From: Candidatus Ligilactobacillus excrementigallinarum
GTDB taxonomy: Bacteria; Bacillota; Bacilli; Lactobacillales; Lactobacillaceae
Length of the DNA: 35,200 nt
Reading direction: 5' to 3'
Assembly: GCA_019114385.1 (NCBI GenBank)
Contig: DXFP01000060.1
Location: 1 to 35,200, forward strand
Below the pieces are notes generated by a model that saw only the letters and a list, made by a program, of their open reading frames with translations, made no database searches and was not told the DNA's origin. Position numbers and translations under genes: made by a program. Numbering within the stretch: position 1 is the stretch's first letter; each line of letters begins with the position of its first letter. Below, piece after piece: positions 7,714 to 9,943 of this stretch.

Positions 7714-7966
7714 AAAAATAAAAATAGTGGTTAAATTAAAACTATAAAAGACAAACGGATCGTTAAGTTCAGGGAAAGAGGTCGTGACTGAAAGCCTCTT
7801 AGTATAACGCTCTTACCACTTTTATTTTTCCTACTAATCATAGGCAGGCGGCTTCCTGTTATCAGCCATAATGAGATGACCTTTGTCAGTTGATTAAGGT
7901 TAAATTGGGTGGAATCGCGTTTACAACGTCCCATGCATTGAGAAGTCAGTGCATGGGACGTTTTTC
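7714..7966 (+). promoter_or_regulatory. T-box leader (threonine) upstream of thrS
   Basis: A tRNA-sensing attenuator. The base of stem I pairs A/T-rich arms near 7714-7728 and 7818-7829. A distal hairpin AAGAGG...CCTCTT sits at about 7777-7802. ACC at 7815-7817, followed by A, is the likeliest Thr specifier; ACG at 7807 is an alternative. The T-box sequence is GGGTGGAATCGCG at 7907-7919, where the usual core is TGGNACCGCG, so one C is T here. The terminator is a 16-bp stem (arms 7925-7940 and 7947-7962) followed by Ts. Uncharged tRNA-Thr should favour the antiterminator and raise thrS expression. Class and gene partner are clear; the exact specifier is inferred by eye. Confidence 0.88.
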
Positions 7967-8002
7967 GTTTGTTTAATAATTATCTTTTGAGGAGGAAGTA
8001 CA

Positions 8003-9943
8003 ATGTCAGAAATTAAAATTACATTTCCTGATGGTTCAGTAAAACCATTTGTTCAAGGTACTACAGTTGAAGAAATTGCCAAGTCAATTAGTATTAGTTT
8101 GGCTAAAAAGGCAGTTGCAGGAAAATTCAATGATCAATTAGTAAATATTCATCAAGCATTAAATGAAGATGGAAAAATTGAAATTATTACTAAAGATTCA
8201 ACTGAAGGCTTAGTAGTATTATGGAACACTGTTGCACAAGTTTTGAAGCATGCTTTGCATAATTTATATCCAGATATGAAATTTGGCGAAAGCCATGCAA
8301 CAGAACACGGTTTCTTTTTAGATACTGATAATGCAGAAGGTCAAGTTTCAGAAGATGATTTCCAAAAAATTACTGCTGAAATGAATAAGATTATTAAGCA
8401 AAATGAAGAAATTAAGCTTGTCAAAGTTTCAGTGGAAGATGCTTTAGAAGCTGCAAAGAACGATGAATATCAAACTGCATTAATTAAAGAAAATGCAGTT
8501 GATGGTCAAGTTGAAATGTATGAACAAGGTGATTTCAAGTATCTTGCAGATGTTCAACTTAGTTCAACTGGAATGGTTAAGGTCTTTAAGATTTTATCTG
8601 TTGCTGGTGCATATTGGAAGGGTGCTTCAAGTAATCCAATGTTGCAACGAGTATATGGAACGGCTTTTTATAAGCAAAAAGATATGGATGCAGAAGACCA
8701 ACGGCGTAAAGAAGCACAAGAACGTGATCATCGTGTGATTGGTAATAAATTAGATTTATTCTTTGTTGATCCTAAAGTAGGTGCTGGATTACCATATTGG
8801 ATGCCAAAAGGTGCTACAATTCGGCGGACAATTGAACGTTACATTATTGACAAAGAAGTTGCGGATGGATACGAACATGTATATACACCTGTCTTAATGA
8901 ACTTAGATGTTTATAAACAATCTGGTCACTGGGATCACTACCATGATGACATGTTTCCACCAATGGATATGGGCGAAGGCGAAATGCTTGAATTACGTCC
9001 AATGAACTGTCCATCGCATATTCAAATTTATAAGCATCATAAGCGTTCATATCGTGAACTTCCATTACGAATTGCTGAAATCGGTATGATGCACCGCTAT
9101 GAAAAATCTGGTGCATTATCCGGATTACAACGTGTACGTGAAATGGAATTAAACGATGGTCACACATTTGTTGCAATGGATCAAATCCAAGAAGAATTTG
9201 CTAAAATTTTGCGCTTAATTATGGACGTATATAAAGACTTTAACATTACAGATTACACATTCCGCTTAAGTTATCGTGATCCGCAAAATACTGAAAAGTA
9301 TTACGATGATGATGAAATGTGGGAAAAATCACAAAAGATGCTCAAAGGCGCAATGGATGATTTAGGACTTGAATATTATGAAGCTGAAGGTGAAGCTGCA
9401 TTCTATGGTCCTAAATTAGATATCCAAACAAAGACAGCTCTTGGAACTGAAGAAACAATGTCAACAATTCAACTTGATTTCTTGCTTCCAGAACGCTTTG
9501 ATTTGAAGTATACTGGTGCAGATGGTGAAGAACACCGTCCAATTATGATCCACCGCGGGGTTGTTGGTACAATGGAACGCTTCACTGCATACTTAACAGA
9601 AATTTATAAAGGGGCATTCCCTACATGGCTTGCTCCAGAACAAGTGGCAATCATTCCGGTAAATAATGATTTGCATCTTGATTATGCAAAAGAATTACGG
9701 AGCAAGTTAGTTGCACATAATATCCGAATTAAATTCGATGATCGTAATGAAAAGATGGGTTACAAGATTCGTCAAGCACAGATTAACAAGATTCCATATA
9801 CTTTAGTTGTTGGTGACAGTGAAAAAGAAAATGGAACAGTAACTGTACGTAAATATGGTGAAGAAAAGCAAACAACAATGCCATTTGATGACTTTGTAAC
9901 AATGATTAATCACGATATTGAAACTTACAGTAGAGAAGACTAA
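8003..9943 (+). CDS. thrS: Threonyl-tRNA synthetase, editing site apparently lost
   Basis: A 646-residue class II synthetase that charges tRNA-Thr. Domains in order: N-terminal TGS-like domain (1-62), editing-type domain (about 65-230), catalytic core, anticodon-binding domain (about 540-646). The core keeps the zinc ligands in [14 protein letters not shown] and MIHRG. The editing domain has the right fold signature ([18 protein letters not shown]) but not its active site: the family HxxxH is N75...Q79, and the family D-x-C-RGPH stretch reads YLADVQL (180-186). Ser-tRNA-Thr proofreading in cis is therefore expected to be absent. The start ATG 8003 has GAGGAGG upstream. It is controlled by the T-box, and there is no terminator of its own before the infC promoter. 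Confidence 0.96.

Follow-up and report, generated by a model that had tools for sequence, protein, structure and literature searches.

A threonyl-tRNA synthetase of Lactobacillaceae with an erased editing site and an intact catalytic core

Results

The thrS locus and its editing site

The window analysed here is the whole 35,200-nucleotide stretch of Candidatus Ligilactobacillus excrementigallinarum (contig DXFP01000060.1, positions 1 to 35,200), and the gene in question is thrS, which lies at 8003..9943 on the forward strand, starts with ATG and encodes a threonyl-tRNA synthetase (ThrRS) of 646 amino acids. With 680 bits, the protein lies above the cut-off of 383.65 for the equivalog model TIGR00418 and is a bacterial ThrRS by this measure. 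Its editing site is erased and its catalytic core is intact, as judged from the residues. All of its domains were delimited on the same strand. The N1 or TGS domain (residues 4-63; 8012..8191) matches Pfam PF02824 with 48.6 bits and is followed by the N2 editing domain (residues 66-226, bounds of our own choice; 8198..8680), in which the fold is predicted to be kept and the site is erased. The class II catalytic core (residues 240-535; 8720..9607), whose start was set from solved catalytic fragments that align from residue 240-242, matches PF00587 over residues 326-535 with 137 bits, and the anticodon-binding domain (residues 547-635; 9641..9907) matches PF03129 with 92.8 bits.

The window protein was aligned with the ThrRS of Staphylococcus aureus (1nyq) and with 106 other ThrRS, 86 of them from 40 Lactobacillaceae genera and 20 from eight other Lactobacillales families. 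L001 and L006, which are the window itself, and L095 and L096, which are N-terminal pieces of split genes, were left out. An editing-competent ThrRS carries an HxxxH motif together with the Cys and last His of a CRGxH motif. In the window protein, N75 and Q79 of the segment WNTVAQ (from residue 74) occupy the columns of both HxxxH histidines, N75-T-V-A-Q79 being encoded at 8225..8239, and Y180-LADVQ-L186 (8540..8560) stands in place of the DxCRGxH stretch, with A182 in the column of the catalytic Cys, Q185 in the column of the last His and the Arg deleted. No His or Cys is found in any of the four canonical editing columns. Two further N2 segments, SVAGAYWKG and LQRVYGTAF, begin at residues 199 and 214, and the Pfam SAD model, which covers the Cys/His portion of the site, reaches 23.9 bits (cut-off 24) over positions 19-44 only. 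In the core, RPMNCPSH, NDGHTF and MIHRG begin at residues 332, 384 and 515 respectively, and all three zinc ligands are present, namely C336 (9008..9010), H387 (9161..9163) and H517 (9551..9553), which correspond to C334, H385 and H511 of the Escherichia coli enzyme (PMC4041444).

An earlier note on this DNA had described the asparagine and glutamine at HxxxH, the YLADVQL segment (180-186) replacing the DxCRGPH stretch, the absence of all four canonical residues and the retained core zinc ligands. The alignment agrees with this description throughout and upholds the erased site. The loss exceeds chance variation, since all 20 outgroup ThrRS keep the four residues and 69 of the 87 family rows share the loss. 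In E. coli ThrRS all four editing residues are reported as critical, with editing reduced more than 500-fold in C182A and C182S, 7000-fold in H73A and 70-fold in H186A (PMC4041444).

A T-box leader of thrS was found upstream of the gene at 7739..7936 on the forward strand (RF00230, 49.3 bits, E 4.4e-10). It does not reach the RF00230 gathering score of 93, despite being a good T-box by eye and by its relatives. The T-box features present by sequence are GGGTGGAATCGCG, a specifier ACC, a competing terminator and the cognate synthetase downstream. ACC is a threonine codon and the probable specifier; this candidate lies at 7815-7817 within CTTACCACTTT, which is invariant in the four relatives (two near-identical pairs) that keep the leader upstream of thrS. 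The terminator hairpin (7925..7962) consists of a 17-bp stem followed by a T-run, and the stretch 7890-7975 folds with a z of -5.3. The T-box of the earlier note is thus confirmed as a leader conserved in relatives, whereas its label of 'regulated copy' became moot because only one thrS was found.

Three states of the editing site in Lactobacillaceae

We found three states of the editing site in the family. The erased state accounts for 69 of the 87 Lactobacillaceae rows and 32 of the 40 genera, as counted by columns with the window included; in all of these rows the second His is lost together with the Cys and the last His, and nine of them retain the first His. In the re-tooled state, found in 11 rows from seven genera, HxxxH is kept, Asp replaces the Cys and Leu replaces the last His. 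The intact state is limited to five rows of one genus (g20), two further rows (L086 and L092) being partial, and it was observed in all 20 rows from the other Lactobacillales families. Being shared by 32 of the 40 sampled genera, the erased state is old and is not a property of the window organism.

Among the matches listed, the best 80 named ThrRS comprise 70 intact proteins, one without coverage of the N-terminal part and nine non-intact proteins, all from Lactobacillaceae (two re-tooled from Weissella confusa and seven erased). Genome G040 and Holzapfeliella floricola have identical ThrRS, and further ThrRS of the family match those of named Companilactobacillus, Apilactobacillus, Secundilactobacillus, Lactobacillus and Weissella at 80-87%.

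With an intact N2 domain as query, a match was obtained in 395 of 397 family genomes, in three separate score bands that are, outside the 87 rows, score bands and not residue checks. The top band (273-312 bits) holds five genomes, all of g20, and the middle band (182-214 bits) holds 69 genomes belonging only to the seven re-tooled genera, both groups being counted by hand; the remaining 321 genomes lie at about 134 bits or less. A thrS match is missing in G064 and G165, which are 65% and 87% complete respectively. The erased state also occurs in large genomes, as seen at residue level in G038 (2.8 megabases, Mb) and G021 (3.3 Mb) and by score band in G332 (3.7 Mb).

Several erased ThrRS differ in their N-terminal part. 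For L051, L058, L082, L083, L094 and L150 the match starts only at query residue 49-56, so that N1/TGS is apparently absent, and their frames measure about 600-618 amino acids where stated. Genome G042 has two thrS copies (L083 and L094), both erased and both with matches starting after the TGS domain. L082, from a genome (G296) that carries the genus code of the window, has no TGS match, unlike its genus mates; it is the best match of the Limosilactobacillus protein L150, at 80% identity, which looks like gene transfer. In two genomes thrS is divided into two frames with a break near residues 125-137 (L086/L096 in G388 and L092/L095 in G295). Both assemblies have 7% contamination, so that the split may be an assembly error, and these genes were excluded from the evidence.

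Gene trees

A total of 187 ThrRS rows were available (87 family, 20 outgroup and 80 named), from which we chose 91 that span the groups and built a tree on residues 236-646, the editing domain being excluded. Since the 60 erased rows fall on one side of a branch (support 96/87, 97% of bootstrap trees) in this tree, one loss suffices. The re-tooled rows need two changes in the core tree, where g20 lies among them and just 10% of the bootstrap trees unite them in a single group. A separate tree, built from the N2 domain of the non-erased rows, makes them one clade (98/94) that is sister to g20, and re-tooled and g20 rows stand together against the outgroups with support of 100/99 in an alignment that includes the motif columns. 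The simplest history would start from an intact ancestor whose site was erased a single time on the way to the window and was re-tooled once, or perhaps twice, in Weissella and its kin, while g20 retained the ancestral condition.

Selection on the N2 domain and its predicted fold

Rates and column conservation were compared among the tree rows (60 erased, 11 re-tooled and 20 further rows). The N2/core tree-length ratio is 4.67 in the erased clade, against 1.32 in the outgroups and 1.27 in the re-tooled clade; measured against the core, the pace of N2 in the erased clade is thus about 3.5 times that in the intact outgroups. The TGS domain is relaxed together with N2, its ratio to the core being 2.13 in both outgroups and re-tooled rows and 5.73 in the erased clade, whereas the ratio of the anticodon-binding domain is barely shifted (2.24, 2.28 and 2.78 in outgroup, re-tooled and erased rows respectively). 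Mean pairwise core distances are near-equal in the same three groups (0.180, 0.168 and 0.159), and the corresponding N2 distances are 0.282, 0.282 and 0.541. The four g20 rows give an N2/core ratio of 2.42 and an anticodon-domain ratio of 4.63 on a core length of only 0.09, values that we do not interpret.

Of the 77 N2 columns conserved in the intact tree rows, 20 survive in the erased clade and 57 in the re-tooled clade, against 166 and 161 respectively of 189 conserved core columns. In N2, not one of the 60 erased rows retains P98 or R206, while 12 have Y106 and 20 have K157; G95, F104, D107 and Gly202-Ala-Tyr204, by contrast, are present in all 60. We also estimated omega, the ratio of nonsynonymous to synonymous substitution rates. 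For N2, 11 of the 13 erased pairs give values of 0.05-0.15 (of the other two, one is almost unchanged and one saturated), eight intact pairs 0.03-0.11 and four re-tooled pairs 0.04-0.08. Most core values lie between 0.005 and 0.06, but a single erased pair and a single intact pair are near 0.1. N2 in the erased clade is relaxed and still under purifying selection.

The N2 fold of the window ThrRS is predicted to be intact, as in an editing-competent enzyme. In the AlphaFold2 model the ten-residue mean of the predicted local distance difference test (pLDDT) is 82-96 over residues 61-200 and 70-94 over residues 201-230. For the full-length model, superposition covers 631 residues of S. aureus 1nyq at 2.4 A and 627 residues of E. 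coli 1qf6 at 3.5 A.

The re-tooled state and the intact genus

The re-tooled rows are L052, L059, L060, L062, L063, L064, L084, L085, L089, L091, L093, L121 and L127. The 11 in the tree carry Y173A (11 rows), F178H (8), D180E (8), C182D (11) and H185L (11), and all of them keep H75, H79, Y106, K157, P98 and R206 under an outgroup-like constraint. This site looks changed rather than decayed. The domain is as constrained as a working one, and the re-tooled site may be an editing site that is free of thiol.

Genus g20 (L043, L070, L071, L072 and L074) is the only Lactobacillaceae genus found to hold all four editing residues. The catalytic Cys of the ThrRS editing site is oxidised by H2O2 (PMC4041444), which raised the idea that the site was kept intact in g20 as a catalase genus. 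We rejected this idea, as the heme catalase PF00199 occurs in none of the five g20 genomes; it was found in 12 of 53 genomes tested and is absent from the outgroup genome G397, whose site is intact.

Search for a second thrS or a trans-editing protein

The earlier note had offered three alternatives, namely tolerance of serine-for-threonine (Ser-for-Thr) errors, a separate trans-editing protein or a second, complete thrS. We found no second thrS in the genome of the window (1.47 Mb), which is 95% complete, so that the missing 5% could hold one. A search with the SAD domain detected no stand-alone ThrRS-editing or AlaX-type protein in this genome, the only other SAD match lying within a 916-amino-acid frame with the AlaRS motifs HTATH and CGGNH. 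Two INS domains are present, one in a prolyl-tRNA-synthetase-sized frame and the other in a free YbaK-like protein of 166 amino acids (L066:1381-1881), whose best NCBIfam match is YbaK_EbsC, a model of Cys-tRNA(Pro) deacylase, at 134 bits and below the cut-off of 153. T-rich and GTG motifs, which we take to be editing motifs, are present in the IleRS-, ValRS- and LeuRS-like frames of the same genome. Among the synthetases examined (AlaRS and the IleRS-, ValRS- and LeuRS-like frames), the decay of editing looks specific to ThrRS.

Discussion

We favour, with a probability of about 70%, an explanation in which editing was lost once, Ser-for-Thr errors are tolerated or limited at the synthetic site, and N2 is kept as a clamp on the acceptor stem. 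A single T-box-controlled ThrRS would charge tRNA(Thr) at the intact zinc site and most likely cannot clear Ser-tRNA(Thr) in N2. The gene tree shows a single loss of the catalytic residues, placed at the ancestor of the erased clade, and the N1-N2 half has evolved since then under relaxed, still purifying selection. N2 would have been retained because it goes on holding the acceptor stem of the tRNA while this is charged, as may be expected from other ThrRS, in which the acceptor stem is bound by the editing domain and charging is weaker when that domain is deleted (PMC4267643). Ser-for-Thr would be a mild error, so that the cell could live without post-transfer proofreading by ThrRS and would need no dedicated replacement; in E. 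coli, growth suffers little from C182A, and the Thr-to-Ser change is called well tolerated (PMC10057733). The synthetic site might in addition contribute some discrimination against serine or some pre-transfer editing.

A number of points weigh against this explanation. Editing defects of bacterial ThrRS are reviewed as causing growth defects (PMC11415595), and E. coli C182A is described as severely impaired under oxidation when heat-shock proteases are lacking and as mildly impaired with excess serine (PMC10057733). Loss of residues is not the same as a measured loss of activity, and the loss of editing is here deduced from residues; moreover, the YbaK-like protein could act on Ser-tRNA(Thr) and leave no phyletic trace. 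The trees are gene trees and not species trees. The N2 omegas of intact and erased pairs overlap, and synonymous divergence (dS) is above 1 in many pairs, so the argument for relaxation rests on the contrast between N2 and core, while an omega well below 1 leaves room for another active function of N2. The input alignment of the AlphaFold2 model had 34 rows, mostly from intact relatives, and may lend their fold to the model.

Fidelity would be normal if a free deacylase (an INS protein of the YbaK or ProXp-ST type, AlaX or another) cleared Ser-tRNA(Thr) in trans. INS proteins are known to correct mischarging by several synthetases, including ThrRS (PMC11415595), one such free protein is present in the genome of the window, and three to five INS matches were found in some erased genomes, for example in parts of g4, g6 and g14. 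However, three or more also occur in some re-tooled genomes of genera such as g2, and the count of two is shared by all five genomes of the intact genus g20 and by 20 of 25 genomes of the genus of the window (counted by hand), so that the YbaK-like protein does not track the loss. SAD matches likewise number at most two in 52 of 53 genomes, which cover all 40 family genera and five outgroup genera; extra free SAD proteins were seen only in G040 and perhaps G035, and a SAD frame of 417 amino acids in G007 is perhaps a cut AlaRS. We therefore regard editing in trans as clearly unlikely. With the second thrS and a dedicated editor not found and INS counts not following the loss, tolerance of Ser for Thr or a tighter synthetic site is left. 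The latter, taken by itself, would mean that a synthetic site selective against serine, or capable of pre-transfer editing, made N2 redundant and let it decay while the proteome stayed accurate. The changes V330E, H338S, M340I and V515M lie beside the zinc ligands C336 and H517 and are common to erased, re-tooled and intact Lactobacillaceae rows, with residue 515 being Leu in two of the 11 re-tooled rows, so that they look older than the losses; it is also reported that loss of an editing domain is in some cases paired with higher specificity (PMC11415595) and that pre-transfer editing occurs in a mitochondrial ThrRS that lacks N2 (PMC4267643). On the other side, these changes are present in the genus whose editing site is intact, and Met515 is also found in Stenotrophomonas ThrRS 6vu9, which has canonical editing residues. 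The mitochondrial pre-transfer editing did not stop the formation of Ser-tRNA(Thr) (PMC4267643). As to whether the pocket changed first, six of the 192 core columns with conservation on both sides show a fixed difference, and four of the six lie within six residues of a zinc ligand, for which the P of 0.0045 is post hoc, the six-residue span having been picked after the columns were seen. An accurate proteome secured at the synthetic site is in our view doubtful, though not far-fetched.

The purifying selection on N2, together with positions whose conservation is new in the erased clade, L186 and T76 for example (either one present in 54 of 60 rows), would also fit a domain that still edits through a shifted, non-canonical site, which we consider highly improbable. 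The N2 rate is relaxed in the erased clade, and the residues with the low counts given above (P98, R206, Y106 and K157) are ones that we take to lie on the substrate side of the editing site. His, Cys and Glu are absent from the newly conserved N2 columns, and the single Asp among them (residue 177, 48 of 60 rows) occupies a position that is Glu or Asp in the intact rows as well. Tolerance or limitation of the error after a single loss, with N2 kept for charging, remains our preferred explanation.

Lactobacillaceae are largely culturable and many are free-living. ThrRS proofreading is said to persist in free-living bacteria, and a single loss in Lactobacillaceae, if true, would be a clear exception. 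The family offers a natural experiment, since all three states of ThrRS occur among closely related bacteria and the editing motifs of other synthetases are present in the genome of the window. It would make testable whether Ser-for-Thr is tolerated, compensated or useful, and what role a proofreading domain has that does not proofread. A wider proposal, possible although the odds are against it, is that most Lactobacillaceae have been without Ser-tRNA(Thr) clearance since one loss, which would give a serine-dependent 'statistical' proteome in hundreds of species, and that the Asp/Leu pair replacing Cys/His in the Weissella group could make a thiol-free, oxidation-proof editing site. We found no report of ThrRS editing loss in Lactobacillaceae among the open-access titles and abstracts listed, a search that does not take in the main survey of editing loss, so that an earlier report is possible; the string 'lactobacill' has no occurrence in the available text of PMC4787780, PMC11415595, PMC10057733 and PMC4014445. 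A literature search on serine/threonine antagonism in lactobacilli gave nothing useful.

Comparison with known systems

The window ThrRS shares features with several known enzymes. The full-length fold predicted by the model is shared with S. aureus 1nyq and E. coli 1qf6, both of which, unlike the window ThrRS, have a four-residue editing site (PMC4041444 for E. coli). Yeast mitochondrial MST1 likewise works without a post-transfer editing site; however, it is without the whole editing domain (PMC4267643), whereas the window ThrRS keeps a predicted N2 fold. Anabaena T2 is a bacterial ThrRS in which N2 is present and editing is impaired, but it owes this to an insertion and keeps some activity, and it is helped by T1, which edits in trans (PMC4787780). 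In the window ThrRS the catalytic residues are gone, and the single thrS found in the 95%-complete genome does not form a duplicated pair of this kind. In mycoplasmas the editing domains of ThrRS, PheRS and LeuRS are degenerate (PMC7373986, PMC10057733, PMC4014445), and a single thrS is reported for mollicutes (PMC4014445). There, too, editing residues are missing from an otherwise working enzyme, and the degeneration is tied to host-restricted, strongly reduced genomes (PMC7373986, PMC10057733, PMC4014445). In contrast, the loss seen in the window, whose own genome measures 1.47 Mb, spans 32 genera and genomes of up to 3.3 Mb.
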